DNA of 64,000 nucleotides from Sabellastarte sp. h YS-2021 (lineage: Eukaryota; Annelida; Polychaeta; Sabellida; Sabellidae): NCBI GenBank assembly GCA_964017235.1, contig OZ024929.1, positions 113,631,793 to 113,695,792 of the forward strand, given 5' to 3'. The notes below the pieces were generated by a model that saw nothing but the letters and a program-made list of their open reading frames with translations, was not told the origin of the DNA and ran no database searches. Every line of letters begins with the position of its first letter. Position 1 is the first letter of the stretch. Shown here one piece after another: positions 17,266 through 51,599 of the stretch. Made by a program: the position numbers and the translations under genes.

Positions 17266-17269
17266 TTGG

Positions 17270-29045: not shown

Positions 29046-29505
29046 ACACTAAAGACACCAGTTTTACAGTTCCACTAAATCTACCTCTGTTGTGTTTGTT
29101 CAGTTTTGTTATTTAATAAAGTTGTAAACTACATTGATTCATAAATACACTCAAACAATAATTGTACAAATGCAAGGTTTTAAACTACAACCAATAAACT
29201 CAAACTGTGCCACTGCAATGGATTACAACAAAACTCAATGAACTATAATTGTACTTCCTTTTATACTCAATATACTACAACACTAATGGCCAACAACTAC
29301 ACACAAAGTCTCAGTGCATTTGTTTAAAGTCATGGTCACACTATAACTACAACTGCATTGCATCAGGACTTCACTCCAACTACTAGTGTGTTGTTACAAT
29401 GTAAACCATAAATAACCGAATAAATTTGTTTCATTACTAAACCAACCCAATAAAGCAAATTTATAAGTAAATGTTGAAAAAAAAAAGAGTTCATTTTCTC
29501 TAAAA
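29046..29505. other. unique flank left of the Maverick
   Basis: AT-rich single-copy sequence between the minisatellite and the transposon. No gene is seen. The undisturbed site would join this sequence to 52570 with one copy of GAAATG. Confidence 0.6.
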
Positions 29506-29511
29506 GAAATG
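29506..29511. other. target-site duplication, left copy (GAAATG)
   Basis: The six bases GAAATG directly precede the left TIR and are repeated exactly at 52564-52569 after the right TIR. Confidence 0.95.
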
Positions 29512-30800
29512 AGTAGTATATACCGAGTGTATATCGAGTCGAGTTTCCCATCAATCATGTCACTTTTTGACAGCTGTGCAGCTGCCTGGGGCAGATGGTA
29601 GATGGATGGCTAGGTAGGGCAGGGTCGATACTAGCTCTATACAGGTGATTGGGCTCTATACAGGTTCTTGAGACTGGCTCAATGGGGACTTTTGTTTTAC
29701 TTTGATAGTTTATAGCTATTACTCAGCTGAATCATCACACAGCTGTGCTTTTTTAATGGGTGCAGCTCTTTGTCTGATTTTTTTTTTTAATGGGTTAGCA
29801 CAGCTGTGTTTAATGGGGCTTTGTCTGCTAGCTCCAAGCTTTGTTTTAATGTGGCTTTGTCTGCTAGATCTCGTGGCATTGTCAAATCAGCTGTGTTTTA
29901 ATGGGGGTTATGTCTGCTTAATGGCAGTGTGTGCTTTTTAATGGGCAAGCTCTTTGTCTGATTTTAATGGGGGAATAGCACAGCTGTGTTTAATGGGGCT
30001 TTGTCTGCTAGCCCCAGCTTTGTTTTAATGGGGGCTTTGTCTGCTAGATCTCGTGGCAGGGTTAGAACTGTTTTAATGGAACCTTTATCTGCTACAAATG
30101 TTTAATGGGGCTTTGTCTGCTAGCCAAATTTTTAATGGGGCTTTGTCTGCTGGCCATGCTTTGTTTAATGGCTAGCACAGCTGTGTTTAATGGGGCTTTG
30201 TCTGCTAGCCAATCTTTGTAAATGGGGCTTTGTCTGCTACCCATACTAGTTCACAGCTGTGGTTTTTTGAATGGAACTTTAATGGGGCTTTGTCTGCTGG
30301 CCATGCTTTGTTGTTTAATGGCTAGCACAGCTGTTTTTAATGGGGCTTTGTCTGCTAGGCCAAGCTTTGTTTTAATGGGGATTTGCTAGCCAAATTTTTT
30401 AATGGGGCTTTATCTTCTAGCCTACTGCATGATATTACTACTGAAAACTGAATCATCTAATAGCCCTTTTTTCTGCTGATGGGGGCTTTGTCTGCTAGCC
30501 CATACTAGTTCACAGCTGTGGTTTTTTTAATGGAACATTAATGGGGCTTTGTCTGCTTAATGGGACTTGTTTTAATGGGCTAGAACTGTTGAACTGTTTT
30601 AATGAGACCTTTGTCTGCTGCAAATGGTTAATGGGGCTTTGTCTGCTACCCATTTTTTAATGGGGCTTTGTCTTCTAGCCTACTGCATCATATTTCTACT
30701 GAAAACTGAATCATCGCACAGCTGTGTTGTTTAATGGGTCTTTTTCTGCTAGAACTCTTGTAATGGGGCTCTGTCTGCTAACCATTTAATGGGGGTTTTG
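29512..30800 (+). repeat. left terminal inverted repeat of the Maverick
   Basis: The outer 370 bp or so is nearly identical to the inverse of the right end. Further in, it is built of an imperfect repeat, TTAATGGGGCTTTGTCTGCT(AGCC), mixed with CACAGCTGTG motifs. The left arm has about 245 bp of extra repeat units (about 29881-30125) and a longer inner section than the right arm. Open frames such as 29702-29941 are translated repeat. Confidence 0.9.
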
Positions 30801-30895: not shown

Positions 30896-31050
30896 TCTGT
30901 TGAAAATCCCATTCCCAATTAAAATTAACGGGAAATTTCGAACCTCAGAGTAAGCACACGAACGCAATATCTCGCCTCATATACAGTCGCAGTTTAATCT
31001 CATACTTTCATATACACTTTTGATTAGGGTTAGGGCTTTGGGGTTAACTA
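30896..31050 (+). repeat. Maverick-specific repeat, long form (left)
   Basis: The 60-bp core runs from CTGTTGAAAATC through AATTAAAATTAACGGG and GAAATTTCGAAC to GTAAGC. It is followed by about 90 bp ending TTAGGGTTAGGGCTTTGGGG. The same composite lies inverted just inside the right TIR (51345-51562) and inside an intron (37550-37735), so it extends the inverted-repeat symmetry of the element. Confidence 0.8.
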
Positions 31051-31111
31051 ATAATCAGTGAATCCTGTCTTTTTCTTTGGAAAACTGCTGAATACTAGAA
31101 TTTTAACAGTC

Positions 31112-31119
31112 TATATAAA
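31112..31119 (+). promoter_or_regulatory. TATA box of the BIR gene
   Basis: TATATAAA lies 75 bp before the ATG at 31187 with no ATG in between, which favours that ATG over earlier non-ATG starts in the same frame. Confidence 0.65.
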
Positions 31120-31186
31120 CGCAAAAATTCAACTTATAAACTTAATTGGTTTTCCAACTATCAAGCTAACAGCATCTTCTAGCAAC

Positions 31187-31720
31187 ATGTTTTCTAATAC
31201 TGCATCCAACATAACTGATAGGGATAGTGAGATAGTTCATCCAGCAAGTAAACCAGTGGAAGACCAGACTGATGCTAGGTCATCTTATCTACAGTCTGCC
31301 TCTACTCAATCTGCAGCCTCGGTTGGAGGCTTTTCATTGAATTCTTCAGCTAGATATAACTCCAATCCAAGAATTCAACCACCCTGTGGTAACTCTGCTG
31401 GGTTACATTTATGTCATAAACCCACACCCTATGTGGGAAGATGGATATTTAAGGTTCCTGATTATTCTGGATATGATGAGAGATATGCTACATTTAGAAC
31501 ATGGCCGAAGTCTCACCCCATTCGCCCAGATGCCCTAACTCGTGCTGGTTTCCTCTATACAGGGGAGGGGGATAAGGTTACCTGCCCCTGGTGTAAAATA
31601 TCTCTTATTGAATGGGAGACATATGATGTACCAATGGACGAACATAAGAGGCATGCACCCACCTGTGAATTTGTGAAAATGATAATGCCCAAAAATAGTT
31701 TTTTCTCTCCTACCTCCTGA
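31187..31720 (+). CDS. BIR-domain (IAP-like) protein
   Basis: A 177-residue protein with one baculoviral IAP repeat in its C-terminal half. The BIR pattern is clear: an R..TF..WP start (TFRTWP), then AGFLYTGEGDKVTCPWC, WETYDVPMDEH and the closing RHAPTC, which supplies the Cys2-His-Cys zinc ligands. BIR proteins bind caspases or other IAP-binding-motif proteins and can block apoptosis; that role here is inferred. The N-terminal 80 residues are Ser/Asn-rich and look disordered. No RING follows in this frame, but a separate RING gene lies 1.5 kb downstream. The frame is open upstream to about 31058 without an ATG, so an upstream exon cannot be excluded. This is a cargo gene, not part of the Polinton core. 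Confidence 0.88.
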   Translation: MFSNTASNITDRDSEIVHPASKPVEDQTDARSSYLQSASTQSAASVGGFSLNSSARYNSNPRIQPPCGNSAGLHLCHKPTPYVGRWIFKVPDYSGYDERYATFRTWPKSHPIRPDALTRAGFLYTGEGDKVTCPWCKISLIEWETYDVPMDEHKRHAPTCEFVKMIMPKNSFFSPTS

Positions 31721-33231: not shown

Positions 33232-35005
33232 ATGGATAACTTTGTACAAATTGGCAGAAGAATTGATCTCTTTCGACCCAATCATCTGATTTCCAATATG
33301 ATAACCATTTGTGAACTACTGATGCTGATTGACAATGGACACTACCAGCAGGCGATGGTTTGTTACATCCTGCTCAACGACATTCTACCGGCCTTTATTG
33401 TGTAAGTACCAAATATTTATTTGTTTTAATTTTTTACATAAAATTTTAGAGAGGACTTATTCCAATGTAACGAGGTGGAGCTGTGAGGCTATTGTAGAAC
33501 TAGCTTTGTATAGACCCCCTCCTGAGCGTAACACCATTCATTCAAGTAAGAATTTTAATGAAATGTTAATAAATGTCAATAAATTATCTTCTCTCATGAC
33601 AGCTATAATAAAAAAACCAACTGGGTGAAATTTAGGGTCTAGTTAGATAAATCTCCTAAATTTGATGTATTTCCTTATTCTTTAAACTATCTCAATTAAT
33701 TTTTATTTTTTATATTAATGAAGCTTTTTGGTTAAAACATCTGTAATTTTTCATTGAGAGATAATATACGAAAAGGGTTTCTCTACCCTCAATATGCAAA
33801 TTGTCAATGTTAATTTTAATTGAGAATGGAGATTTTCAACATTATTCCTCTGATATACTTGCTCTCACAGCATCCACAGAGATTGAGAAGGCATAAGCTC
33901 ATTAATATGTATGTCAAGCTGCTTACCTTCGGGTTCGAAATTTCCCGTTAATTTTAATTGGGAATGGAGATTTTCAACAGTATTCCTCATACTTGAGTAT
34001 ACTTGCTCACAACATCCAGAGAGGTTGAGAAGAATTAAGCTCATTAATATGTATGTCAGGGTGCTTACCTTCGGGTTCGAAATTTCCTGTTAATTCTAAT
34101 TGGGAATGGACATTTTCAACAGAGAATCATAGCTCTGCAATACTGCAGTATTCTGACAAACAATCGGAGGCATTTCCCTAGGGTGAGGACTGTTGATAAT
34201 CTCCAATCACAATAAGCAATAACGTGAAATTCGAACTCCCAGGTATGCACAGGAACACAATTTCTTTTTCTCAACCCAATTTTGTATTGACTAATCTCTG
34301 CTATTTAGTCAAATAACTAAAATTTCTCTAATTTTTATATTTTTCAGCCGGAAATATCCAGATTTCGTTCAATTTGTGAGCCAATTCCTAGAAAAAGCTG
34401 AATGTGCTATCTGTAAAGACGCCTTAGATCAGGCAGACATCATACTGACCAACCCATGTGGACACTTGCTCTGTGTGGAGTGTTCTTGTCAGTTATCAAG
34501 GATGTGGCAGGATGGGGCTGAGGCTGAACTGAGGTGTCCCATATGTAGGACCATACTTTTAGAACACAAATTTACAAAGGCCTACTCTATCCGCAGTTCA
34601 AAAATGAGCACTACCTCACTATTTACATGGGTCCCCACTTCCATGTACATGAATACCAGTTATGACCAATTGCTGATCGAGGCTCTAACTAATAGAGACC
34701 TCGAGATGGCTTTTGGGTGCGCCTTTTTTCTAGGCAAAAGCCCAGAAGATGTGGAAACTATGATAGCTCCTCAGTGGGCTACATATTACCAGCAACGAGC
34801 CAACAACTTAACATGCGCCTGCTGCAAAATAGACCTACCATTAACAAGGGCTTTTATGAGCTCTTGTTATCACTTTTATTGTACAACATGCTCAGCACTA
34901 ATATCCGGTAATTTAGCACATCATCCGAGTAGGTGTTTAGAGTGTAACACCCAATGGCATGTTGACCCTAGTGGTTGCAGCATGTTGCGTCCTACAAACA
35001 CCTAG
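33232..35005 (+). CDS. two-exon protein with two RING-type zinc modules
   Basis: Exon 1 is 33232-33401, the donor GTAAGT is at 33402, the acceptor TTTTTCAG ends at 34347, and exon 2 is 34348-35005. The junction is phase 2 and keeps one frame of 275 residues. Without splicing, exon 2 has no ATG near its start. Exon 1 and the start of exon 2 encode an all-helical region of unknown fold. A C3HC4-type RING follows: CAIC, then PCGHLLCVEC, then CPIC (about residues 76-127). A second, shorter zinc module lies near the C-terminus: CACC, then CYHFYCTTC, then CLEC. RING proteins are usually E3 ubiquitin ligases, and IAPs often combine BIR and RING. Here the two are separate neighbouring genes. The intron holds three tandem copies of the Maverick-specific repeat. 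Confidence 0.82.
33402..34347 (+). other. intron of the RING gene, containing three tandem repeat copies
   Basis: GTAAGT...TTTTTCAG boundaries. Copies of the 60-bp repeat, antisense to the gene, lie at 33806-33841 (partial), 33921-33980 and 34062-34122, spaced by about 142 bp, with 'cattaatatgtatgtca' between them. The open frame at 33329-33628 crosses the donor and is not thought to be real. Confidence 0.8.
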
Positions 35006-36811
35006 TGGTCTACAATCTCAAAATTTTTTTTTAAAAAAAATTTTTTTATTTCTAAATTTGGTCTGAATGAATGGGGTGCCTCCTCAGTCTTCATCCTTTT
35101 TCTCCTGTCATATCCCTAAAAATTGACTAGGTTACATTCTGCACAGAGCCAATCAAGCCATATGTCATCAATAACAGAAGGATACCCAGAATAAATCTGA
35201 GCAACTGTCATCATCAACAGCATGAAACCATTGGGATAATTAATAAGACAAGGAGCTCGGCATATATCAAAATGATAGAGGGACTGAGATATCACTTAGA
35301 CAATCTTATAGAATTTTTATAAAACCAGCTGAATGTGTAATAGAGGGAATAAAAAACTTTGAAAAAAGGTAAATGTCAAAAAAAAATCTCTGTAATTATA
35401 ATTTGCAAGAGTTTGAATAATCTGAAGTTTTTTTAAATCATTTAATATTTGGAAGCTAATGTAAATATTTTTCACTTAGTATATGATTATTCCTGTAGAT
35501 CCTTAGTAATTTATATTATTTTGTCATATGTCTTTAATCTACTAAAAAACAATGATCTTGTTAAGAAATGATTTTATTATAATAACTGAATACATGAAGG
35601 TTTCAGATGCTTTTTTGACTAAGGTAGCACTTCCTCATAATTTATATGCATCCTTAAGTCAATATTTAAACAAGTCTGCATGACACGCCTTTTGTGTGGT
35701 GACTGTACAATCAAGCTGATTTATGGTTTTTACTCTGTATGAGATCTTCTGTGTAATCAGAAGAACGCTCTGTACAGTCATCTCTCAAAAGAATTGTTCA
35801 GCGTGCAAGGTCATAATTTATCTTGTTAAAGGAGGTGTCTTAACCTATTTTTATTTTAATAAAATAAACCATTTCAAAAGAATTTCGACAATATGAGCTC
35901 ATCATATGTCTCCATTTACAAAGTACTGGTATTTATTTAGCTTTTTCTTTGCAATCAATCAGCGACACCAGTCATTGCAATGGAGAAGTCTGCTCTGCTT
36001 TTTTGTAAATGTTAACATAATAAATTGGATGTATGACCAGTCTATTTTTCTCAAAAGATTTTTAAAAAAATATTTTTCTGTTACACCTTCAATTCCATTC
36101 AATGTGACTGGTTTTTTACTTTTCACTGTGTGACGCTGAATTTTTAAATTTTTTTAAAGTCATTCTATGTAGAATCCTCTGTTAAAGATATCATTAATAT
36201 GCTCTACGCCATGATACCTGTATAGGATTTTTTATTGAAATTCTTATGTATATATTGTTTGAAAGGGTTATATGGTTATTTGACAATAAAAGATGGAAAA
36301 TTATCACATATATTATTCTTTATGAACTATTCTCACAAGAAAATTACATATATGTATATATCAGAGAGACATAATAATAATCAAAGGATGATAATTGGTA
36401 CAATTAAAAAGAATTAAATATATAATATTCTTCCAAAAAAATTCTCTGAAGAGATATGTCTGACTAAATTGTCAGAGATGATATGAAATTAAAAAAGATA
36501 AATTAGAATAAAATTTAAAGAAACACCTCTCTCTCTATCTATACCTCTTTCATTTACTAAGTCATATCAATTTACAGTGTAACTAATCTATAACCATTCA
36601 CATGTCATTTAAATATTATAAAACCACTCTAAAAGAAATGTTCAAGTAAAAATATCTGACTTCAAAAGATATAAAATTACATAATAATATATAATATTTT
36701 TTCTGCAAAGATCTCTCTGAATTACAGATCAAGAAATCACGTCAAATTAAAGTATCTGGACAAGTCCTTAACTATAAAATACAATACAATACAAAATGTC
36801 TGTCTATAATT
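35006..36811. other. AT-rich gap between the left cargo genes and the membrane-protein genes
   Basis: Very AT-rich sequence, with a T8A8T7-like run at about 35025-35050. Short open frames at 35906-36133 and 36235-36417 have AT-driven composition and no domain, TATA box or family resemblance. I see no gene. It separates the plus-strand cargo genes from the minus-strand pair that converges on it. Confidence 0.5.
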
Positions 36812-38243
36812 TTACTTTTTTAATATAAAGACTTTCTTGTATCTTCGACCAGATCTGGTCTCGATGAAACTGGTTTCTTGCAGATCAGAAACCTGGTCAG
36901 ATTCATTTGATACATCTACAGATCTCAGGACTGAGAGATCATCCATTTCTATCTCAAAATCTGTAGACTTAGTGTCAGATACCTGAGTGGCCTTATCAAG
37001 AACCTCAACGATACTTGAAGATAGATCTGTAGTAATTATCCTCTCCTCCCCTATATTTTCAAATATTTTCCTAGCATCAGTCTGTATCCGATCATTCCAG
37101 GTATCACCGGATACTGAGGACTCAGGATAGGTGGAACTTAATTCATCTGATGAAAATTTCAGATTAACAAATCTTTCCTTAGGACAGGTAGATTCAACAG
37201 CTGTGCTATCAGTCTCAGCCATGTGAGATTCATTTCCCTCATCACTCCCTAGACAGTCAAATATTCTATCCAATAGTATGAACAACAACCTGTCTTTGAA
37301 GCGACGAATGATGAAAACTGCGACCCCACCCAGAAATCCTAGAATAGGAATGACTAGAAGTCCATACAAATCATCGTCATCATCATCATCATCAATATCT
37401 AAATCATCAGCATCATCGTAATTGTCATAGTCCTGGTCAGTTTCTTTATGATCTGATGTCTGATCTAAAACACAAAACCAGGAAAATATTATATGAACTG
37501 GCTATTACACCCTGTGCTTCAAATATTATGATTATATTTGATGAATTTTCATCTCTAACCCCAAAGCCCTAACCCTAATATGCATATCACTAGAGAGATA
37601 CCATAGAGAGCATTGGTCACTCGAATTGCTTTCATAAAATGTGACTGAAAATCTTCAGAGATATTGCTTTCGTGTGCTTACTCTGACGTTCGAAATTTCC
37701 CGTTAATTTTAATTGGGAATGGAGATTTTCAACAGGGCTGCGCATTGCTAATAAAATAACTGGCTGATAAATGTAATTCCTCTCCAAAATAACTAGTGCA
37801 TAATATCAAAGGCCTAAGGTGATATATAATTATATATCCATATTTACATATACCTGGAGACATTAAACCTCCCAAAACGTCCCAAAAATAAGACCAAATA
37901 TATCGTATCACTTACCCGAGTTACATCCAATGACAGTGACTATGCTATCTGAGTATTCACATTCCCCCTCACAGTTCCAGTATAGGATTCTGAGCTTAGC
38001 ATAATTCTTAAGAATAGTTCTAAGGGGTAAGATGATCTTTCCAATGTAACATTTCTCGTATATCAAAACGTCTAGGTCATAATCACCACATTTTTCACCG
38101 TAATTTTCAAAGTCCTGCATCGACCTCAAGCCCACAATATGCAATGTGCCTGTCTCCTCGTGGAAATTACACTCCACATGATAACAGTTTGTAGTTGTTG
38201 TAAGAAAACAAACAAAAATCAAAATAAAACTGAAATACGCCAT
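36812..38243 (-). CDS. two-exon type I membrane protein with LRR-like ectodomain (gene 2)
   Basis: Minus strand. Exon 1 is 38243-37916 (donor GTAAGT at 37915), the acceptor TTTTAG ends at 37465, and exon 2 is 37464-36812. The intron is phase 1 and the frame stays open for 326 residues. Exon 1 encodes a signal peptide (MAYFSFILIFVCFLTTTTNC) and a short Cys-containing ectodomain with a leucine-rich-repeat-like stretch (AKLRILYWNC). Exon 2 starts with a strongly acidic stalk containing an Asp run, then one membrane segment (LLVIPILGFLGGVAVFII), a basic stop-transfer (RRFKDR) and a cytoplasmic tail of about 190 residues rich in Ser, Thr, Asp and Glu. It shares its architecture with gene 1 upstream. 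I do not know its function. Virion or cell-surface glycoprotein and decoy receptor are both conceivable. Confidence 0.75.
37465..37915 (-). other. intron of membrane-protein gene 2
   Basis: It contains the long form of the Maverick-specific repeat (about 37550-37735), including CCCTAACCCTAAT and the 60-bp core at 37674-37735, here in the gene's sense orientation. Confidence 0.75.
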
Positions 38244-38290
38244 CCTTCCGTAAAATATAAACAGAAATATATGATTTCAAGGCGTCAAAA

Positions 38291-38356
38291 TACGTCATAG
38301 GGTTTCTAAATTACGTCACAAGCTATGGAGGCATGTTTCCGTGTAATGTGACGTCA
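38291..38356. promoter_or_regulatory. cluster of CRE/ATF-like sites upstream of gene 2
   Basis: TACGTCAT (38291-38298), TTACGTCAC (38311-38319) and the full palindrome TGACGTCA (38349-38356) lie within 66 bp. They sit in the 173-bp gap between the 3' end of gene 1 and the ATG of gene 2. These match the known CREB/ATF consensus; function is inferred. Confidence 0.55.
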
Positions 38357-38416
38357 CAATTCGTTTTCTCGCAGGAAAACTATTAATTGAAGAATATTAA
38401 TTTATATTTCTTACCT

Positions 38417-39625
38417 TTATGGGTTGATTTCAGTGTCCTCATCAGTCCTAAGTCCTACATCTCTCATTTCTATCCCATTGCCCTCGTTTTCCAAATCTCT
38501 GTTAAACCTAGAGCAGAGTAATTTTTTCTTTAGGATCCATGCGATTAGAAATGCAGACAAAATGCATGAGATGCCGGTTGAGACCATAAGCCAGTAGCAT
38601 CTTAGGATGTGTGAGCTATTGTTTGCTGTAATTTTTGTCATATTATAGACAGATCCTTTGGATGAATACTGGGCAGTGCTAGTGGAATTCCAGAGATCTG
38701 TTGATGAGACTGAGGAATGGTTAAGATTCCATATCTCTCTCGCTGTTGTAGCTAATTAAGAAATAATAGTCAAAAATTACACTTTGTTATAATTCACCAT
38801 TGACATTAAATACTAACAGGAAATAGCTAAAAGCTGAACCAATGAAGGTTAGCTCTGTCATTACAGACCTACGAGGACTGTTGAAAATCTCCAGTCCCAA
38901 TTAAAAATAACAGGAAATTTCGAACCCGAAGGTAAGCTTGATAAAACATATTAATGAGGTATTGCTGCTAGTGCGTCGCTTTGGACGCAATGACAGTAAG
39001 CTCTGGATGTACAGAATGTGGAGGTCTGTTGAAATTCTCCATTCCCAATTAAAATTAACAGGAAATTTCGAACCCGAAGGTAAGCACCTCATACACATAT
39101 TAATGAGGTATTGCTGTTACTGCGCCTGTTTGGACGCAATGAGAGTAAGCTGTGAATGTACAGACTGTGGAGGTCTGTTGAAATTCTCCATTCCCAATTA
39201 AAAATAACAGGAAATTTCGAACCCGAGGGTAAGCATCCCAAAGCCATTTTTTCTCTGAATATTACATTATAATTTTAACTACATAGGATAATATACTCAC
39301 CTTTCTGGACATTTTCTGTGCACATATTAGTGACTACTATAATTTCCACCGGAATTTCTTTAATCCTAGTGCAGTTGAGGTACATTATATCCAATATTGT
39401 CCAATATTTTAAAGAGGGAAAATTTTCCAAGACTAGATAGATATCTAGAAATTCCAACTTTTTTAAATATAAAATACGGATTTTTGGATTATAGGTAAAT
39501 TTCACCCATACAACATCTATACATACAGCCATATCTTCCTCACAGTTACACATTCCCTGGAAACAAGCTTTAGATTTCAATAATCCGGGTAAAAGGGCTA
39601 AGAGGATAAACATTTGTGTCTGCAT
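38417..39625 (-). CDS. two-exon type I membrane protein with LRR-like ectodomain (gene 1)
   Basis: Minus strand. Exon 1 is 39625-39301 (donor GTGAGT at 39300), the acceptor TTAATTAG ends at 38752, and exon 2 is 38751-38417. The intron is phase 1 and the joined frame has 219 residues. Exon 1 encodes a signal peptide (MQTQMFILLALLPGLL), a Cys cluster like an LRR N-cap (CFQGMCNCEEDMAVC) and two or three leucine-rich-like strands. Exon 2 begins with a Ser/Thr/Asn-rich stalk with several N-glycosylation sequons (NHS, NST, NMT, NNS), then one membrane segment (about 38610-38540, ending AFLIAWIL), a KKK stop-transfer and an acidic tail of about 35 residues. The start at 39625 is chosen because it opens the signal peptide; the frame extends slightly upstream without ATG. 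Function unknown. Confidence 0.75.
38752..39300 (-). other. intron of membrane-protein gene 1, containing three repeat copies
   Basis: Three copies of the Maverick-specific repeat (38877-38938, 39024-39086, 39173-39234), antisense to the gene, are separated by about 87-bp spacers with 'catattaatgaggtattgctg'. The open frames crossing this region on both strands are repeat artefacts. Confidence 0.8.
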
Positions 39626-39655: not shown

Positions 39656-39830
39656 CAGTACATGAGAACAATACAGGCAAAACTCTTTGTGTAGGATATC
39701 TGGCAGGTATTGGGGTATCTGGCAAGCAGGCGAATGTAATCTTGGCAGGTGAAATAATATAAATAGAGAGGAGACTAAACAGCTTTCTGATTGTTTACCG
39801 TGTGACTAAGGAGATAAGATAGTGATAACA
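39656..39830. promoter_or_regulatory. divergent promoter between gene 1 and the packaging ATPase
   Basis: ATATAAATA at 39758-39766 lies 65-73 bp before the ATPase ATG. Toward gene 1, 'tatctggca' recurs near 39700 and 39716, and 'cttggcag' near 39741. No clear TATA box for gene 1 is seen. Confidence 0.55.
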
Positions 39831-40451
39831 ATGTTCAAATTTTTTTCACCCACTACTGCAATGATTACAGGTCCTACGGGCTCTGGAAAGACAAAGTTTG
39901 TGTTTAAGCTATTGGAGAATTTAAATACTATGTTTGATGTTCCAGTGGATAAGGTGTACTATTTTTATGGGGTATGGCAGGATTCTTTTGATAACAAAGT
40001 AATTGAAAATTTGGAATTTATTCAGGGACTTCCTGACGAGACTCGAATTAAGCAAATTGCTGACTCTAAGCATAATCTGATTATTATTGATGATTTACAA
40101 ATGTCAGCAGTGAATAGTCCCTCCATTACCAATCTATTTAGTAGGGATTCACATCATAGAAAACTCAGCGTCTTTTTAATACTACAAAATCTGTATCATT
40201 CTGGAAAGTACAGTAGAGACATTACCCTGAATACTCATTATTTTATTTTGTTTAAAAATCCTAGGGATATAAATCAAATAAAAATTTTAGGAAATCAGTT
40301 AGGAATGTGTGATAAGGTCTGTCTGGCCTATGAGGACGCCACTACAGAATCTTACAGTTACTTGCTGATAGATCTGTCTCCTACCAGGGATAAGAGCTCA
40401 TGGTTACGCACCCATATATTTCCTGATGAATACCTAACTATATATAAATAG
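39831..40451 (+). CDS. ATP: FtsK/HerA-type genome-packaging ATPase
   Basis: A 206-residue P-loop ATPase of the A32/FtsK-HerA type found in Polintons and related viruses, where it pumps DNA into the capsid. The Walker A motif is GPTGSGKT (about residues 14-21) and Walker B is LIIIDDLQ (about 83-90). A polar Q motif follows about 35 residues later (VFLILQNLYH, about 118-127), as in this clade. The ATG at 39831 is preceded by a TATA box at 39758 and an ATG-free leader. It opens the plus-strand core gene cluster. Its stop codon is embedded in the TATA box of the next gene. Confidence 0.95.
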   Translation: MFKFFSPTTAMITGPTGSGKTKFVFKLLENLNTMFDVPVDKVYYFYGVWQDSFDNKVIENLEFIQGLPDETRIKQIADSKHNLIIIDDLQMSAVNSPSITNLFSRDSHHRKLSVFLILQNLYHSGKYSRDITLNTHYFILFKNPRDINQIKILGNQLGMCDKVCLAYEDATTESYSYLLIDLSPTRDKSSWLRTHIFPDEYLTIYK

Positions 40452-40797: not shown

Positions 40798-41162
40798 ATA
40801 AATTTGTAATGATACCTCATGAACAATTTTTAAAATTTAAAAAATATCTCGAGAGTGAAAAGCAGAACGCATATAAAGACAAAACTACTGAGCAGGAATC
40901 AGAGCAATCTGAAAATGCTGTAACATCATCCAAGGCTGAGACTGGAAGCAATGAGAGCCTATATATGTCACCACCACCAGGAATACCTGAGATCAGTGTA
41001 GACAAACGATTCAGTGATGATGAAAAATCCCCAACTAATTCAACTGGAGGAAGGGTTAAACAGCAAGGAGGAACGGCTACAAAACAGAGGGGAGGCAGCA
41101 GGGAGTCTATCAGAGAGCGCAAACCAAAATGGATTAAATTCTGGAATAAAAATCTCTCCTGA
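40794..41162 (+). CDS. Polinton-conserved protein with PPPGIP motif, unknown function
   Basis: A 122-residue protein beginning MNKFVMIPHEQFLKFKKYLE, then a Glu/Ser-rich linker, a PPPGIPE motif (about residues 61-67), a Gly/Gln/Arg-rich stretch and a KPKWIKFW end. Short proteins starting with a similar 'M..FV.IP...' segment and carrying a PPPG motif occur beside the integrase in other Polintons (my recollection). It starts at the ATGA overlap with the preceding ORF. Its last 146 bases overlap the integrase start in another frame. Confidence 0.6.
   Translation: MNKFVMIPHEQFLKFKKYLESEKQNAYKDKTTEQESEQSENAVTSSKAETGSNESLYMSPPPGIPEISVDKRFSDDEKSPTNSTGGRVKQQGGTATKQRGGSRESIRERKPKWIKFWNKNLS
40960..40968 (+). 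promoter_or_regulatory. TATA-like element for the integrase, inside the preceding ORF
   Basis: CTATATATG. With initiation about 30 bp downstream, the first ATG reached is 41017, the proposed integrase start, because 40970-41016 has no ATG. Confidence 0.45.
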
Positions 41163-42288
41163 TGTGGAGGTACTCCTTAAAGATGCATATTATAACCCCA
41201 GTAGTCCTGCCTCCTTCAGCGGGGTTGAAAAATTGTACAATTTCGTGAAAAAAAATGATCAATATAAGATTTCAAGGAGATCTATTAAACAGTGGCTAGC
41301 TAAACAGGAGACCTATACTTCACATCATCCTGTCAGGAGACGTTTCAAGAGACCCAAGGTCCTTTCCTTCTCCAAAAATTATCAATGGGATACAGATACT
41401 GCTAATATGGTGAAATACAGAAAATCGAATGATAATTATGGCTATTTTGTGGTTTTTATCGATATATTTACTCGTTATCTCTATACCAAACCAATGTATA
41501 CTCTCACAGGAAAGGAAATGAAGCAAGTCATGTCTAATATTTTTGAGGAATCAGGGGTGAAACCACAGAAAATAAGAAGTGATCAAGGTAGTGAATATAA
41601 AAATTCAGAGGTGACCAAATTTTTGAGAACCTCAAAGGTGGATCAGATATTTACTTATTATGAAACTAAAGCTAATTACGCAGAGAGAGTAATAAAAACA
41701 ATTAAACTCAAGATATTCAAATATTTAACAGCTAGAGAATCCTTCAGATGGGTAGATAATTTACAAAACTTTACGGCTAGTTACAACAATGCCAGCCATA
41801 GATCTATTAAGATGACCCCCACAAAGGCTCAGAGTTCAAACCAGTATGATATATGGTCTTATCAATACGGCCTCAAAACTAAGGGTATTAAGAAAGACAA
41901 AAGCATGAAGAAGACCAGACCTAACCCTAAAAGGGTGAAATTTATGTATAAGGTTGGTGATAGGGTTAAAATAAGTTATCTAAAGAACAGTTTCGATCGA
42001 GAATATGCTGAAAAATGGTCTGGTGAGATTTTTACAATCATTGATAGAAAACTAAATCAAGATATCCCAATGTATCAACTAAAAGATTATCAAAATGAGG
42101 TCATAACGTCATATTTTTATGAGCCTGAATTACAACTAGCATTTTTGGATGAAAATATGGTCTACAAAATAGAAAAAATTCTTAAAAAAAGGAAAAGAAA
42201 GGGGATATCAGAGATGCTGGTAAAATGGAAAGGATGGCCAAGCAAATTTAATTCCTGGATACCAGAGACAGCTATGGAAGAACTATAA
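41017..42288 (+). CDS. INT: retroviral-type integrase with C-terminal chromodomain
   Basis: A 423-residue rve-superfamily integrase, which inserts the element and creates the 6-bp target duplication. Catalytic acids are seen in WDTDTA (about residue 124), RSDQGSEY (about 187) and NYAERV (about 221), with 33 residues between the last two. The N-terminal 100 residues are helical and basic. The C-terminal 50 residues form a chromodomain (YKIEKIL, then LVKWKGWP, then NSWIPE), which in other elements reads modified histone tails. The frame has a stop at 40999, so the ATG pair at 41017/41020 is the earliest start unless an intron is used. It overlaps the preceding ORF by 146 bases. Confidence 0.95.
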   Translation: MMKNPQLIQLEEGLNSKEERLQNRGEAAGSLSESANQNGLNSGIKISPDVEVLLKDAYYNPSSPASFSGVEKLYNFVKKNDQYKISRRSIKQWLAKQETYTSHHPVRRRFKRPKVLSFSKNYQWDTDTANMVKYRKSNDNYGYFVVFIDIFTRYLYTKPMYTLTGKEMKQVMSNIFEESGVKPQKIRSDQGSEYKNSEVTKFLRTSKVDQIFTYYETKANYAERVIKTIKLKIFKYLTARESFRWVDNLQNFTASYNNASHRSIKMTPTKAQSSNQYDIWSYQYGLKTKGIKKDKSMKKTRPNPKRVKFMYKVGDRVKISYLKNSFDREYAEKWSGEIFTIIDRKLNQDIPMYQLKDYQNEVITSYFYEPELQLAFLDENMVYKIEKILKKRKRKGISEMLVKWKGWPSKFNSWIPETAMEEL

Positions 42289-42763: not shown

Positions 42764-43160
42764 ATATTTAAACTTTTGCAAGAAATGTATTGAGGGAAGA
42801 GTCGCATATAACCCAAATTTTTATGAATTAAATCCTAAAAATTCAGAAACAGATAGGGTTAATGACAAACCGGTGGAGGTTACATTAGTTACACCTACAG
42901 AGGCAGCAGTGGAGCAGGCCAAGAGTGAGATAAAATTGAAAAAGGGTATAAATAGCATGGTTGGAACCCACAAAGGTCAAACTGGTGGGAAGACTAGAAA
43001 GAGTAAGATTACAAAGAAATCCTCAAGAAAAATTTCTTCCAAGAATAAAAATAAAACTAGGAAAGGTAGCAGCACTAAGAGATCATCAACATCTGTCCAG
43101 AAGGGGTTGAAAGTAAAGAGTAAGAAGAAAAAATTCAATTCTCACTCATTATGGATATAA
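42756..43160 (+). CDS. lysine-rich basic protein, putative DNA-condensing core protein
   Basis: A 134-residue protein. The N-terminal third has a Cys pair (CKKC) and mixed sequence. From about residue 65 it is dominated by Lys, Ser, Thr and Gly, with runs such as KSKITKKSSRKISSKNKNK and KVKSKKKK. It resembles nothing I recognise as a folded domain. Position between the two capsid genes and the histone-like tail suggest a virion core protein that packs DNA, as adenoviral core proteins do; this is inference. It overlaps both neighbours (ATG within the minor capsid stop; stop within the MCP start). Confidence 0.7.
   Translation: MDKYLNFCKKCIEGRVAYNPNFYELNPKNSETDRVNDKPVEVTLVTPTEAAVEQAKSEIKLKKGINSMVGTHKGQTGGKTRKSKITKKSSRKISSKNKNKTRKGSSTKRSSTSVQKGLKVKSKKKKFNSHSLWI
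42947..42955 (+). promoter_or_regulatory. internal TATA box for the major capsid gene
   Basis: TATAAATAG lies inside the lysine-rich ORF, 196-204 bp before the MCP ATG. From about 42962 to 43150 no ATG occurs in any plus frame, so the MCP start would be the first one met. Confidence 0.6.
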
Positions 43161-44458
43161 TTCAAACACCTTTAACCATCTTCCAGCCACCACCCATAGA
43201 TAAGACGATTCAGAAAGAATATTGGGTGGAGTTCAATCCAATTGCCGCTATCACAGATAGCAGTGTAATAGAATTTAATATCCCAGGGACCTCAGTAGAT
43301 TATATCAATTTAGCTAAAACCAGGTTACATGTAAAATACATCATTACAGATGAGAAGGGGGTTCCTATTCATAATAAGCCACCATCAGCTGGTCAACCTG
43401 CAACCCCTAGTCACCAGGTGGCGCCTATAAACTTGACCCTCCATTCAATTTTTAGACAGGTTGATATTGCATTAAATCAAAAAGTAGTATCCTCAGATGT
43501 GGGTGCTAATTATCCGTATAAGGCAATGATTGATTTTCTTCTATCAACCAACAACAACATGGTTCAATCAGAGGGTGAGGCAGCATTGTTTCATAAAGAT
43601 CAACCAGGGGCCATGGAGGCTATCACCTACACAGGGGGTAATCCAGGCTTTACAGAGAGAGGCAGACCAACTAGAAGTGGAGGAACGGCTAGTGTGGAGG
43701 GTTTACTTTATACAGACTTTGGAATAGATCAACCCAGGGCTATAATAAATGGGGTGGCGGTTACCTTGAAGTTTTTTCAATCCTTCAATGAGTTCAGATT
43801 AATGAGAGATGGGAAAGAAAAGTTGAGGTTAAAAATCACAGAGGCTATTTTAAAAGTTTGTTATATCTCTTTGAATCCAGATATGTTAGTCGCTCATAAT
43901 GAGGCTTTGAAAACAAGTCCTGCACTCTACCCCTTCTGGAGAAGTGATATTAAAAGCTTCAGTATTGCTAAAGGATCTCACACATTTATGACTGATAATA
44001 TCTTCCATGGTAAGGTTCCCAGCAAGATTGTGGTTGGTTTAGTTTCAAATGCTGCCTATTCTGGAGATTACACTAAAAATCCGTTTAACTTTCAAAATAT
44101 GGATCTCAATTATATGGAATTGAGTGTGGATGGACAGCCTGTACCAAATAGACCCTTTAAACCCAATTTCAATGAAAAAGATTATGTAGCCTCTTATCTA
44201 AGTCTGGTACCAAACGATTCTGATCGGAAAAATGGTTTGATTATTCAACTTTCAGATTATCCCAAGGGATATGCATTGTACCAATTCGACATACAGAGTT
44301 TCCTATCTGGTCAGGTGATGACAACTTCCGGAAGTGGACATGTGAGATTAAGTCTAAGATTTGGGACTGCCCTTCCAGAAACTATAAATATTATTGTCTA
44401 CGCAAAATTCCCTGAAATATTAAAGATAGATCAAGCTAGAATGGTAAATGTTGGGTGA
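43151..44458 (+). CDS. MCP: major capsid protein, double jelly-roll
   Basis: A 435-residue protein with the features of Polinton double jelly-roll capsid proteins. The N-terminal section carries EYWVEFNPIAAITDSSVIEF followed by a PGTSVDYINL turn. A central segment (PYKAMIDFLLS) and the late GLIIQLSDYPKGYALYQFDI region follow. Trimers of such proteins tile icosahedral shells in adenovirus-like and polinton-like viruses. The length is in the usual range for Polintons (about 400-650), toward the short end. The frame is intact. The gene overlaps the preceding ORF by 10 bases. Its stop forms TGATG with the next start. Confidence 0.93.
   Translation: MDIIQTPLTIFQPPPIDKTIQKEYWVEFNPIAAITDSSVIEFNIPGTSVDYINLAKTRLHVKYIITDEKGVPIHNKPPSAGQPATPSHQVAPINLTLHSIFRQVDIALNQKVVSSDVGANYPYKAMIDFLLSTNNNMVQSEGEAALFHKDQPGAMEAITYTGGNPGFTERGRPTRSGGTASVEGLLYTDFGIDQPRAIINGVAVTLKFFQSFNEFRLMRDGKEKLRLKITEAILKVCYISLNPDMLVAHNEALKTSPALYPFWRSDIKSFSIAKGSHTFMTDNIFHGKVPSKIVVGLVSNAAYSGDYTKNPFNFQNMDLNYMELSVDGQPVPNRPFKPNFNEKDYVASYLSLVPNDSDRKNGLIIQLSDYPKGYALYQFDIQSFLSGQVMTTSGSGHVRLSLRFGTALPETINIIVYAKFPEILKIDQARMVNVG
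44383..44390 (+). promoter_or_regulatory. internal TATA box for the protease gene
   Basis: TATAAATA lies inside the MCP ORF. Downstream, the first ATG (44441) opens only the last five MCP codons and ends in the TGATG that starts the protease, so reinitiation after a minimal ORF is plausible. Confidence 0.5.
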
Positions 44459-44928: not shown

Positions 44929-45065
44929 TGGTATTACATTAAAATATATTTTCTCTGTTATTTCTTCAAAAAAAACATTTACATACTTGAATCATCTGTG
45001 TCCTGCTCAACAGAGTTCCTCAGTCAGTACTACCACAAAACGCTGACAAGTATTCAGAGCAAATG

Positions 45066-45255
45066 CGTTCGGGTGCTTACCTTCGGGTTCGAAATTTCCT
45101 GTTATTTTTAATTGGGAATGGAGATTTTCAACAGAGTTCCTCAGTCTGTACTGTCGCAGCAAAAAGTGACAGGAATTCAGAGGCAATGCGTTGGGGTGCT
45201 TACCTTCTGGTTCAAAATTTCCTGTTAATTCTAATTGGGAATGGAGATTTCAGTA
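45066..45255 (-). repeat. two tandem copies of the Maverick-specific repeat at the convergent 3' ends
   Basis: Cores lie at about 45073-45134 and 45197-45253, with a spacer of about 62 bp. They fill the gap between the protease and polymerase 3' ends. The second copy contains the polymerase stop codon: its CCCAATTAG supplies the last Pro-Asn and TAG. Confidence 0.85.
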
Positions 45256-48200
45256 GAAAATTTTCGACAGCAATCCATAATTAGCTCACCCATGATGTTA
45301 TTTCCGGCTAGAGAATTAGGGGGAAGCACAGAAATGAGTTTAGTGGGGTTACTGACACCCCAATAGGCCTCATCCTCTCTACTATAATTAGGCTGCTTAT
45401 AATAAATAGCCTTATCATTAACAGATACTAGTCTATCTCGAAAATTTTGACACTGCCTAAATTTTTCAGAGACACATAGGTGCATAATATCCTTCTTAAT
45501 TTCTTCATTTCTACTTTTTGAGATAAATGTTTTGTCAAGATGATTGTATACATTAAGGGGATCTGTTTCCAGCAAAATCTTATGACAAAGTGTAATATTT
45601 TTGTAATGTTTGGCTAAAAGGTGATAAAACATTTGTTCAATTGAATGATAAGATAAGGCGTCTACTCTCATCTGAGAATAGTACAGATTAGATAGGGGAT
45701 CCTGTACCTCTGATACAACCAGGGATTCTCTTTCCCATGGTGAGAGGGTTATATTTAAAGGTCTGGTTGTGATCCCATCATCTTGCACCTCTCTCTTACA
45801 ATAAAAATAATTGAATCCTATTTTAGTTTGTGAATAGGTAAACATATTAGCATCCCTCATTCTAAATCCTAAATTGGTGGAGAAACTTGTCTCTCCAGTG
45901 CTTAGAGTGTGAGTAAATTTAGCCATAGCATCAGTTAAATTTTTTTTAGAAATACCTTTAGAAGATATTTTCTGTTTACCATCCTGATCCTCTATGATAT
46001 AGGATTTTGAACAGAGTGATAACATTCGAAATCCAGAGAATTCTTTCTTAAAAATCCCTGGGATTTTCTTATCTATGGTGATATGGTGGGAGCAGCAGCG
46101 TCTTGGAAACCAGAGTGCATTCAACTCATCAGAACAGGACCCAAAAATTTCCTTATGATATTTCTGTCGGTATCTTCCCCTAACACAAAGATCTAGATCA
46201 GATTGATTTATAGCCATATACAGACTATCGGTGTCAGTTTCCGTTAATTCAAATGACTGGGGTCTAAGGTATTTCAGTAAGCAGTCATAATAAAATTCCA
46301 ACATTCTTAACTTTGCATATTGTAAAATAAAAAAACCAATTTGTATAGGGTTATCCATCACAATTCTAGACTTATAGGTCTCTACCTCAAAAACTCCATT
46401 AATATCCTGCATATCTTTAAAAATGCAAGAGTTTATTATTTTTCGGACTTTATTCTTATCCACTAGATATCTCACATTAGAATGTTTAGTTTTATTCATG
46501 AGAAAGGAACCATAACTGGAATTACTTATCAATTTGAAGGTGTCCCCTATAATTGCTTTATCCGTCTCTAATTCACCCTGAATCCTGTGATGGGTCACCT
46601 TATCTATGAATGAAGTGAATGAGGGTTTGGGTTGAAATTCGATTATCTGATAGATTTTTGAGACTTGACATTTATTTTTCAGATACCACTGCAAAAGGGG
46701 GGTGGCAAGTAAAATTTTGCGAGCCTTAAGCCCACTAATCAGAAGTCTTTTACTTTTAAATTGAATGTCATTGGCGTTACAATAGGAGAGCATATGTGAA
46801 CCTATTACCTCCATTGGTACCTCACAAGTAGCAAAAAAGGGGGGATATTCTTGAAAGAAATCTTCATGCCCCTCCTCCACCTGGATATCTACCTCTAATG
46901 CACCAAACAATCTTCCATTTTTAACATCTGTTAAGATCTTTGAGTGTGTTAAATCCCCCTTATTTTTCCTGTAGTAAGAAGGGAGGTAATGTTCATAAAA
47001 TCGGAGGCATTTGGGTTTTATTTTGGAGATAAATTGACATTGCTGAATAGCCACAAATTTATAACCCTGTGAAATTATGTAGTTCTTTCTAGCTTTATCC
47101 CTCTGTTGCACTTTTTTCAGTCTTTCTGACCAGGTTTTGTTTTTTAAATTTTTAACTATAAAGCAGTTAAATTTACAACCGTGGTAATAACATCCGTTAA
47201 ATTCATAAACTGTTTTATTTTGATAACAAAAACCATCTACCCTAAAGTTCCCTATTCTCACCTCTTTTTGATTATTTAATTTATGTCGAATTTTTATTCC
47301 CTCTTTACAGCTGAGATAATCTAACCAAACGTATGAATCTATGTACCTTTCGCTAACCTCTGGTCTAAAATGGTTTTCAGGGAATCTTCTTACATACACA
47401 CCGGCTGGCATTAGTTGCTTGATAGCATAGGAATAGAGGCCATTACAGTCATAACCCACCACGCTCTCACATAAGTTATTTTCTACATTTTTAATTTTTG
47501 TTACCCCTTTTTCTTGATATCTGCTAAAAATTATGCTAGGACCTCCCACAATATTTTGTTTAAATGTATAGTATAGGTCTGCGTTATCTGAATTGAAGAG
47601 TGCAAAATTACTCTCTGAGGAGGTATAGATCATTTTTCTGGCTACACCAGGCAAGGTGATGTAATCTTTAAAAATATCTATCCCTTCCGATACATAAAGA
47701 TCTATGAAAGTAGTGAGGGCTTCACAGAAGGGTCCAGTATCTAGATTATTGTAATGTATTAAATAATCCCTAAAAGTCCTCATACCATTCTTATTCCAAA
47801 GATTTCTAAGCTCTTCATACTCAGACTCAGATTCTAATGGGTTAGACATCTTCATTTTAGAATAGAAATCTTTCATTTCCGGTAAGCAGGTGCAGTCTAA
47901 TTTTTCAAGAGAATCAAACCATTCATAAGGAAATACACCTTTTGGAATGTCACAACCATAGGCTTTAAGAAACTTCTCATAGGAACATCCAGCTGCTAAA
48001 TAATTAGAAATATCTAAAAATTTCATATGTGGAGTACCTATGGTGAGATAGCTGTTTTCTTTTTTGATGGTGAAGATTTCATTTTCTGTGTAATTTAAAC
48101 TTATATACTTGAGAATATCAGTCTTAATTAAATTCAGATCGTATCTACCTGAATTAAATCCAATAACAGGTAGTTGGGTAATGTAAGTAAGAAACTCTTT

Positions 48201-50048
48201 CTTAACTTGTTGAATATTGGATATGAAATGTGACAGAATCTTTTTACTTGGAGTAAAGACAATATTGGATTCTGAATCAGATTCGTCCGACTCGAGTTCC
48301 TCTTCCCAGTCCTCTGATTCGAAATCCGAATCCGCCTGCTCCCCATCCTCTTTATATTTCTGAATGAGCTCATCCAGTTCATATAAAACATGAAAATATT
48401 TGCAGGAGATTTGTTTACGAGCGGCTATACTAATCAGTCTGAGATATTCCATCATATTTTGAATCAAAATTGTCGGATCCGGATTGATAAAACATCTCGG
48501 TGTTTCAAAATTGGTTATGTTAGAAGCTACACTCACACTAATGGGAACATGTTTGGATATCCAGTTCAATTTACTCGTGGTGCTGTGGTTCGTTTTTTGA
48601 AGCATGGCCTCCATATCCCACACTGCAAAGAGTTTATAATATCTAGATTGCTCAGAGGTATGTATTCCTAGAGATTCGAGTTTTTCGAATATGGTTAAGG
48701 GTGACTTATGGAAGCCACCTGGAAAATGGTAGATAGTTCTATCATAGCATACTTTGTAGTGTCTTTGCATGTTCCACTCTCTTGTGAACAACTTAAGACA
48801 CTTCTCGCATTGAAATTTTTTAGCGAATTTATTTATATCTACAATATAACTAAGGTGGTTTTCATGTACATTAAGATACATCTTACTATCATAATTATTT
48901 ACAGATTTATACAGATTACAGACAACTCCATCTGGTGACAGAGAATATATCAAAATTTTTACATTAAAACATCTTTCTAGATCCATCATCTCATCCATAG
49001 TCACACCAGTAAATTGTCCAGTAGAATTTCCTAATTTTTCTGATTTTTTAAAATTCATCCATACACGAAAATATTCGAGGAAATCTTTGTTACCATTAAA
49101 ATGTTGTCGAAGACATCTGAAGAAACATAAATTGTCTGTATATGGTTTGCCCGTCCATTTGTCTATATACATTGTCTTCAGATTCCTATTCTGTTTGATG
49201 TAATCTGGCAGGTCTTCAGCATTTCCCAATGGAAACTCTGTTTTAAAAACTACATACTGCACATTAGTTATGAAGGCGAGGCTCCAGGCAGTAGAGGGTC
49301 TATCTGATCTTGCTTGTGTAATTATATCGATTCCAGCTAACTTATTCATCAAAAAACGAATACTATTCATATTCGAAATTCGAAAAGGATATTGAAGAAT
49401 CTTACTGTTGTAATGTGGAACAAAATATCTGTATTCCCTTGTTTCATTGTTAAATAAAATGGTTCCAAAGGCGAGATTAATCCTGAAGGCATTGTGTAGG
49501 TTCTGATAGATTTCCCTCACCTGGGATCGAATCTCCCTGTAACCCCCATGCAGATTATTGGTTGGAAAATTGTAGATATTCTTTAGTTCAGTCTCTTGAT
49601 GGTTAGCCTGTATGTGATCTATGTTTGTAACGTAAATCTCACGTAAATTTTCGTCATCATTATCTACAATAAAGGCTGGTAGGACAGGGTCATCATTGTT
49701 GCCTCCATGTTGTCTCATTCTATGCGTGTACAGGGCCCTCCTACCCTCAAAATTGCATTTACAAATGCCACATCTGTAAGATTTAGCAGCTGTAGATTTC
49801 TTATGAAATGTCTCCACATGAAAGTTGAGGGCCTCTGTTGTAAGAAATGGAAGATCACAGCTCCTACAGATATATTTTCCACATTTTTGAAGATGTAAAC
49901 ACAAGGCCTGGTTATCATGGAATTGTCGATCACATATCCTGCATTTCTCTTGTATCTTATCTGTTACTTGGTGACAATACTTCTGGTGATGAAGTAGATT
50001 TTTCTGATTCAGTAGGTTAGAACCACATAAATAACATCTACACTCCAT
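45231..50048 (-). CDS. POLB: protein-primed family B DNA polymerase with N-terminal zinc fingers
   Basis: A 1605-residue intact polymerase, one exon. Residues 5-115 hold about four C2H2-type zinc fingers. Around 305-400 an OTU-like segment has DNLCFFRCL and a later NHLSYI, followed by another Cys/His cluster (about 413-433). The 3'-5' exonuclease motifs are WDMEA (about 477), GFNSGRYD (about 631) and YNNLDTGPF (about 767). Polymerase motif A is YDCNGLYSYAI (about 866), B is KLISNSSYG (about 1174), C is DTDSLY (about 1271) and KSYI is near 1347. Between A and B, VDGFC...VYEFNGCYYHGC (about 930-955) looks like the endonuclease-type insert common in metazoan Polintons. It replicates the element, presumably from a terminal-protein primer. 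The TATA box lies 63 bp upstream. The last residues (TEISIPN) and stop come from a dispersed repeat. Confidence 0.97.
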   Translation of the reverse strand: MECRCYLCGSNLLNQKNLLHHQKYCHQVTDKIQEKCRICDRQFHDNQALCLHLQKCGKYICRSCDLPFLTTEALNFHVETFHKKSTAAKSYRCGICKCNFEGRRALYTHRMRQHGGNNDDPVLPAFIVDNDDENLREIYVTNIDHIQANHQETELKNIYNFPTNNLHGGYREIRSQVREIYQNLHNAFRINLAFGTILFNNETREYRYFVPHYNSKILQYPFRISNMNSIRFLMNKLAGIDIITQARSDRPSTAWSLAFITNVQYVVFKTEFPLGNAEDLPDYIKQNRNLKTMYIDKWTGKPYTDNLCFFRCLRQHFNGNKDFLEYFRVWMNFKKSEKLGNSTGQFTGVTMDEMMDLERCFNVKILIYSLSPDGVVCNLYKSVNNYDSKMYLNVHENHLSYIVDINKFAKKFQCEKCLKLFTREWNMQRHYKVCYDRTIYHFPGGFHKSPLTIFEKLESLGIHTSEQSRYYKLFAVWDMEAMLQKTNHSTTSKLNWISKHVPISVSVASNITNFETPRCFINPDPTILIQNMMEYLRLISIAARKQISCKYFHVLYELDELIQKYKEDGEQADSDFESEDWEEELESDESDSESNIVFTPSKKILSHFISNIQQVKKEFLTYITQLPVIGFNSGRYDLNLIKTDILKYISLNYTENEIFTIKKENSYLTIGTPHMKFLDISNYLAAGCSYEKFLKAYGCDIPKGVFPYEWFDSLEKLDCTCLPEMKDFYSKMKMSNPLESESEYEELRNLWNKNGMRTFRDYLIHYNNLDTGPFCEALTTFIDLYVSEGIDIFKDYITLPGVARKMIYTSSESNFALFNSDNADLYYTFKQNIVGGPSIIFSRYQEKGVTKIKNVENNLCESVVGYDCNGLYSYAIKQLMPAGVYVRRFPENHFRPEVSERYIDSYVWLDYLSCKEGIKIRHKLNNQKEVRIGNFRVDGFCYQNKTVYEFNGCYYHGCKFNCFIVKNLKNKTWSERLKKVQQRDKARKNYIISQGYKFVAIQQCQFISKIKPKCLRFYEHYLPSYYRKNKGDLTHSKILTDVKNGRLFGALEVDIQVEEGHEDFFQEYPPFFATCEVPMEVIGSHMLSYCNANDIQFKSKRLLISGLKARKILLATPLLQWYLKNKCQVSKIYQIIEFQPKPSFTSFIDKVTHHRIQGELETDKAIIGDTFKLISNSSYGSFLMNKTKHSNVRYLVDKNKVRKIINSCIFKDMQDINGVFEVETYKSRIVMDNPIQIGFFILQYAKLRMLEFYYDCLLKYLRPQSFELTETDTDSLYMAINQSDLDLCVRGRYRQKYHKEIFGSCSDELNALWFPRRCCSHHITIDKKIPGIFKKEFSGFRMLSLCSKSYIIEDQDGKQKISSKGISKKNLTDAMAKFTHTLSTGETSFSTNLGFRMRDANMFTYSQTKIGFNYFYCKREVQDDGITTRPLNITLSPWERESLVVSEVQDPLSNLYYSQMRVDALSYHSIEQMFYHLLAKHYKNITLCHKILLETDPLNVYNHLDKTFISKSRNEEIKKDIMHLCVSEKFRQCQNFRDRLVSVNDKAIYYKQPNYSREDEAYWGVSNPTKLISVLPPNSLAGNNIMGELIMDCCRKFSTEISIPN

Positions 50049-50110
50049 GGTACAGGGTATTCAGATATGAAAAATAAGGAGATATTATAATATGTTGAAG
50101 ATTTTCCAGT

Positions 50111-51562: not shown

Positions 51563-51599
51563 GACCTCCAATGTGGCTAGCTGTGTTTAGCATGATGGT

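Follow-up and report, generated by a model that had tools for sequence, protein, structure and literature searches.

The stretch of DNA analysed here (the window; 64,000 nucleotides of contig OZ024929.1 of Sabellastarte sp. h YS-2021) holds a Maverick/Polinton element of 23,052 bp at window positions 29512–52563, bounded by a 6-bp target-site duplication (TSD; GAAATG) and carrying AGTAGTATATACC at both ends, with terminal inverted repeats of ~1 kb that show internal repetition. AGTAGT is found at both element ends, corresponding to the (AGT)2 end motif described for vertebrate Mavericks in the available text of PMC8097293. Matches above cut-off to PF00665, PF00385 and PF04665 identify an rve integrase, its chromodomain and an A32-type packaging ATPase, and these, with the TSD, the inverted repeats and the (AGT)2 ends, bear out the initial annotation in placing the genes described below within a real Maverick.

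From the left, the plus strand carries a BIR ORF, an ORF that matches PC4 below threshold and a RING ORF; genes B and A follow on the minus strand, between the RING gene and the packaging ATPase; the ATPase, two small ORFs, the chromodomain-bearing integrase, two further ORFs (141 and 147 codons), the putative capsid ORF and an ORF with a weak Peptidase_C48 match come next, all on the plus strand; and the right end is occupied, on the minus strand, by a 1609-codon putative polymerase ORF and a 142-codon ORF (Table 1). The putative capsid ORF is of the right size and in the right place, with no Pfam match and no PDB match at E 1; the putative polymerase ORF, also in the right place, matched no polymerase model or solved chain, and carries putative PolB motifs. 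A NADAR domain (PF08719, 39.4 bits against a cut-off of 35.1), of a fold linked to ADP-ribose removal, closes the latter ORF, with no mention of NADAR found in a literature search at title and abstract level. Left of the element, long stretches at about 12000–30000 of the window show strong GC skew (to about −0.6), and are probably satellite-like repeats.

Table 1. Features of the Maverick element and of the A–B locus, in window positions.
Feature	Positions	Strand	Remarks
BIR (inhibitor-of-apoptosis domain) ORF	31055..31720	+	domain match
RING protein ORF, left neighbour of the A–B pair	34295..35005	+	domain match
Divergence island	36000..39000	.	left border 36.0–36.8 kb, right border about 38.9–39.0 kb, varying with the copy compared
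Gene B exon 2	36815..37464	-	acidic stalk, predicted membrane segment then RR, tail of ~165 residues
Gene B phase-1 intron	37465..37915	-	one copy of the A-intron repeat, orientation opposite to the gene
Gene B exon 1	37916..38243	-	hydrophobic leader and Cys-bearing putative ectodomain
Gene A exon 2	38420..38751	-	Ser/Thr-rich stalk with N-glycosylation sequons, predicted membrane segment then KKK, short tail
Gene A phase-1 intron	38752..39300	-	three spacer-repeat copies spaced by about 149 nt; the island has its right border here
Gene A exon 1	39301..39625	-	hydrophobic leader and putative ectodomain with six Cys (21, 26, 28, 35, 85, 102)
A32-type packaging ATPase ORF, right neighbour of the A–B pair	39810..40451	+	
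rve integrase with chromodomain	41002..42288	+	
Putative major capsid protein ORF	43124..44458	+	by place, size and conservation
Putative type B DNA polymerase ORF	45231..50060	-	zinc-finger-like N terminus, NADAR at C terminus

The coordinates, starts, donors, acceptors and stops first annotated for both genes were recovered exactly. Gene A opens with an ATG at 39625, reaches a GT donor at 39300, resumes at 38751 and ends in a stop codon at 38419–38417; gene B opens at 38243, reaches its donor at 37915, resumes at 37464 and stops at 36814–36812. Exon 1 is 325 nt long in A and 328 nt in B (remainder 1), and exon 2 is 332 and 650 nt (remainder 2), from which it follows that both introns are in phase 1; the claims of matching phases, and of two tandem split genes sharing one exon plan outside the core gene set, hold. 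The signal peptide and single membrane segment proposed for each product are likewise predicted here, by hydropathy and sequence: all 36 exon 1 reads score 2.1–3.3 for the best KD12 in the first 30 residues, and the best KD19 is 2.01–2.63 in 13 intact copies of A exon 2 and 2.43–2.67 in 11 intact copies of B exon 2. With an N-terminal leader, one membrane segment and positive residues on the tail side, both products appear to fit a type I topology under hydropathy and the positive-inside rule.

The fold of the ectodomains is less readily assigned. None of the window's A and B exons matches a Pfam or NCBIfam family at its cut-off, and the short LRR-like ectodomain initially ascribed to the pair could not be confirmed. 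Among 16 members, one A sequence gave weak matches to LRR_4 (E 0.081) and LRR_8 (E 0.12), and the best PDB match of the A profile was an LRR region at E 0.046, with another LRR chain at E 1.6 and non-LRR chains at E 0.82–1.1. The arrangement C-x4-C-x-C-x6-C after the A leader, which we take to be an LRRNT-cap-like motif, and these weak alignments recall extracellular LRR proteins with an LRRNT cap, whereas the window's own A has no LRR match at E up to 10, and B matches no Pfam family in 14 members at E 10 and no LRR chain among its PDB matches. Structure prediction of both exon 1 products identified no fold; the AlphaFold models (pLDDT 36 for A and 41 for B) are too poor for use, that of B alternating strands and helices at low confidence. 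An LRR fold is thus only hinted at by the sequence of A, and is unsupported for B.

Neither BLASTP nor profile comparison supports an origin of A and B by ancient duplication, as had been suggested from their shared plan, the A–B profile score being reached by 4/100 and 6/100 column-shuffled controls and the hhalign probability being 0.2–2%. Viral contigs searched with the exon 1 alignments of A and B and with the capsid ORF yielded no relatives; protein searches returned relatives of both first exons, 14 for A and 20 for B, all with ENA as their source, and three contig sizes common to both lists (856879, 35967 and 2535186) suggest that relatives of A and B may be paired on one contig.

Within the 1.786 Gb genome of Sabellastarte sp. 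h YS-2021, A exon 1 has at least 151 matches, the best among 691 first-look candidates (150 scored), with 72–100% identity among the matches listed, and A exon 2 has at least 150 matches, at 46–100% identity among those listed; exon 2 lies downstream on the same strand for 135 of 150 listed exon 1 matches, across a gap of 213–714 nt. The best 95 capsid matches, out of 2057 candidates, are each reported as 99 or 100% identical. These copies, at least 95 in number and 15 of them at the top score, lie on many chromosome-sized contigs, and their near-identity indicates a recent burst. Ten capsid copies of equal score (C1:110676718 and nine on C3, C4, C5, C6, C7, C8 and C19) bear one in-frame TAA each, as if one defective copy had multiplied.

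Retention of gene A was assessed against this set. Both A exons are present, where expected and in the expected orientation, in 85 of the 95 listed capsid copies of ≥99% identity (a count that takes in the copy of the window); the remaining listed elements have exon 1 only (three) or exon 2 only (seven), none having neither, so that one or both A exons occur at the same spot in 95/95. Further comparison covered 20 regions of 9.9 kb picked for divergent A exon 1, six of 3.3–3.8 kb picked for unusual combinations of A exon 1 and exon 2, and three left arms of 5 kb, two of them (L035, L036) being the left arms of L012 and L026. Synteny is kept in 18 of the 20 larger regions, with RING and ATPase flanking the A–B pair; in L016 and L027, A exon 1 is present without any detectable A exon 2 or B. 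A search for the pair in other Mavericks, as initially advised, thus finds it recurrent in the same genome.

The donor GTGAGT of A stands in the same position in 19/20 fetched regions (the exception being L027), and an AG followed by N(T/A)ACAAC is readable at the matching place in 17 of the 18 regions with exon 2, the exception, L014, having an exon 2 match that starts late; the automatic picker took a different AG for A in L014, L017 and L021. The GT donor of B is in place in all 18 regions with B, and the acceptor of B is the best in-frame AG chosen by script, which makes the regularity of this acceptor partly a matter of construction. The splice positions are kept across diverged copies, and the gene plan is beyond chance.

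On sequence comparison, the A–B pair behaves as an allelic cassette, swapped against a near-constant capsid; the force behind this exchange is something that we infer. Where capsid ORFs are near-identical, elements differ at ~40–60% of residues in A exon 2 and in B, and A exon 2, found in 92 of the 95 listed capsid-matched elements, is ≥90% identical to the window's in 33 and 40–59% identical in 59. Regions L012 and L026 share with the window a capsid and a RING ORF at 100%, the BIR ORF at 100 and 99.5% and the PC4-like ORF at 99%, against 58 and 55% for B exon 1 and 47 and 48% for A exon 2. Sliding DNA identity places the right border of the resulting island inside the A intron, within the repeat array; in both regions, identity is ~81–99% from 39.0 to 41.2 kb (A exon 1 and ATPase) and mostly 97–100% only from about 41.3 kb rightward, the intermediate stretch therefore implying more than one border, and some RING-to-B stretches do not align between copies. 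A mirror case is seen in L021, with RING at 74%, yet B at 91–94% and A exon 2 at 88%.

Such mosaics recur among the region pairs: capsid dS below 0.05 accompanies a B exon 1 dS above 1 or saturated in 34 of 171 region pairs, and the reverse pattern occurs in six, all between L019/L020 and L024–L026, which may reflect one event. When sequences are clustered at 90% DNA identity, or at 93% for A exon 1, seven classes emerge for B exon 2, six for B exon 1, six for A exon 2, five for A exon 1 (three of them single-member) and five for RING, against two each for ATPase and capsid, the second in both cases being the degraded L027 alone, and one each for integrase and the 141-codon ORF. Class combinations are shuffled among elements; the RING alleles are shuffled too, and variability is therefore not unique to A and B. 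Separate histories of A exon 1 and of the block formed by A exon 2 and B, exchanged between Mavericks, are supported by these sequence classes, and the earlier idea of phase-1 exon shuffling, raised as a capture of host exons, stands in this form, which had not been proposed.

Both introns carry copies of a repeat whose 49-nt core occurs eight times in the window at ≤3 mismatches, all within the element, and not once in 100 shuffles. At ≤7 mismatches, 25/25 A introns contain it (1–3 copies, always sense), as do 24/25 B introns (the exception being L011), where its orientation follows the B exon 1 class; in the same copies and at the same threshold it is absent from the exons and from the A–B spacer. 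This spacer repeat family, located at 30909–30968, 33894–34131, 37649–37744, 38798–39243, 45048–45266 and 51477–51572, recurs between genes and in both introns across the element; it contains GGTTCGAAAT, which we take to be reminiscent of a pol III B box, and Rfam and tRNA scans of 29500–53000 returned nothing.

An exon-exchange system, in which the intron repeats of two surface-protein genes would serve as recombination sites and one capsid backbone would be re-clothed with combinations of ectodomain, stalk and tail, is a tentative proposal that we consider rather unlikely; if true, it would amount to serotype-like diversity generated by intron recombination inside a DNA virus. The divergence island has the repeat at its right border, which is blurred because the intron repeats align to each other, and none at its left border (36.0–36.8 kb). 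As sole recombination sites, the repeats offer a partial fit only, given this repeat-free left border and the pairing of class b of A exon 2 with three classes of B exon 1 (b, d and e) despite the repeat-free A–B spacer.

Selection was estimated as the median pairwise omega over unsaturated pairs with ≥5 silent differences (19 to 27 loci by gene), giving 0.16 for capsid, 0.18 for ATPase, 0.31 for integrase, 0.12 for RING and 0.20 for the 141-codon ORF. By the same measure, exons 1 and 2 of B (0.20 and 0.26) show purifying selection, as would be expected of a constrained protein with old alleles, and exons 2 and 1 of A stand at 0.64 and 0.73. Set against the adjoining ATPase, A gives Fisher p < 0.05 in 7/8 chosen comparisons (L018, 0.11), which share ancestry and are not independent; on these counts amino-acid change in A is fast compared with change at silent sites, and the omega of A may reflect low dS, as is found in exon 1, or relaxed constraint rather than adaptation. 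By script, exon 2 is intact in 13/18 regions for A and 11/18 for B; two of the five excluded A copies (L014 and L021) are open, and fall short by the chosen acceptor. In-frame stops interrupt B exon 2 in all three of the 9.9 kb regions that belong to class f (L024, L025 and L026), and no in-frame ATG was found for B in L021.

The reading that we prefer, with a probability of roughly one half, is that the infected cell bears A and B as accessory type I surface glycoproteins, E3-like in role, with alleles reshuffled by recombination. Both would be made from spliced nuclear transcripts of the Maverick virus, directed by their leaders into the secretory pathway and displayed on the infected cell with the ectodomain outside and the tail inside, there to meet a variable partner, which could be an immune receptor of the host, a ligand for adhesion or the route by which a second Maverick enters. 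The two proteins would act like adenovirus E3 membrane proteins, by analogy of role and with no claim of relatedness; as the partner varies, the element population would keep several old alleles of the pair, reshuffled by recombination partly at exon level within the A intron. Splicing within cells, membrane topology, display at the surface, the partner and the function are all points that we infer. The tail of B has conserved blocks, with a conserved C-terminal ETRSGxxYxKxF, as if it met a fixed partner inside the cell, and the same arm of the element carries the BIR and RING ORFs, which by type are presumably host-facing. A conserved plan, a constrained B tail, variable outward parts and the company of BIR and RING would together suit proteins that face the host from the surface of the infected cell.

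The same proteins might instead be virion glycoproteins, with a particle that gains a membrane, A and B attaching to a receptor or helping entry, and allele classes equivalent to serotypes. Two membrane-protein genes kept in one element with serotype-like alleles would agree with this, as would the putative fusogen reported for nematode Mavericks in the available text of PMC10680173; however, the predicted ectodomains are small (~140 residues in A and ~120 in B) and match no fusogen in Pfam or PDB, and we regard a virion role as doubtful. Superinfection exclusion or kin recognition, whereby infected or carrier cells bearing A and B would block the entry or spread of Mavericks of the same class, so that rare classes gain and many persist, would account through frequency-dependent selection for the several old allele classes that coexist in one genome with near-identical cores; the same coexistence of classes with near-identical capsid ORFs makes exclusion within the host lineage incomplete, nothing here separates the idea from immune evasion, and its likelihood is low. 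Passive cargo, that is, drifting genes without a role whose divergence is merely old, would suit the omega of A and the common damaged copies, but is very improbable given the low omega of B with dS near saturation, the splice sites kept over that divergence, and the retention of A exons in every listed capsid-matched element.

The exchange of A–B alleles bears on the question of whether Mavericks of animals have a life as infecting viruses: a multi-allele membrane pair against a near-constant capsid, with B constrained, is expected of a pathogen under pressure from hosts or rivals, and less of a pure transposon. According to the available text of PMC8097293, animal Maverick particles had not been observed. 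As a test set, this single genome offers at least 95 elements that match in capsid and differ in their putative surface cassettes. A literature search, mainly at title and abstract level and covering few subscription journals, found no split, allelic membrane-protein pair in Mavericks. The unsplit BIR ORF also travels with the element, being present in L016, L035, L036 and L037; in a clam genome, scattered intronless single-BIR genes have been interpreted as retroposed, in the available text of PMC7831173. Some of these clam genes might be Maverick cargo of this kind.

Adenovirus E3 membrane proteins (CR1 family) are accessory and variable between types, and A and B are predicted to resemble them as type-variable accessory membrane proteins of a DNA virus. 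In the available text of PMC11321000, E3/49K of species D is described as a surface transmembrane immunoevasin. A and B differ from the E3 proteins in that Pfam scans give no sequence match between them, in their two-exon plan with phase-1 introns, and in residing on a Maverick, which integrates and has exchangeable allele cassettes. Nematode Mavericks, compared here by the description in the available text of PMC10680173, likewise have an extra membrane-active gene, a putative fusogen, whereas A and B are short, paired and multi-allelic, and have no fusogen match in Pfam or PDB. Vertebrate Mavericks, as portrayed in the accessible portion of PMC8097293, share with the present element the 6-bp TSD, the (AGT)2 ends, the core gene set (with capsid and polymerase putative here) and accessory regions flanking that core; no introns were observed there in the genes of intact elements, whereas A and B are, as read from their sequence, split at conserved sites by introns that carry a repeat found elsewhere in the element, and split genes thereby enter a group described as intronless in vertebrates.
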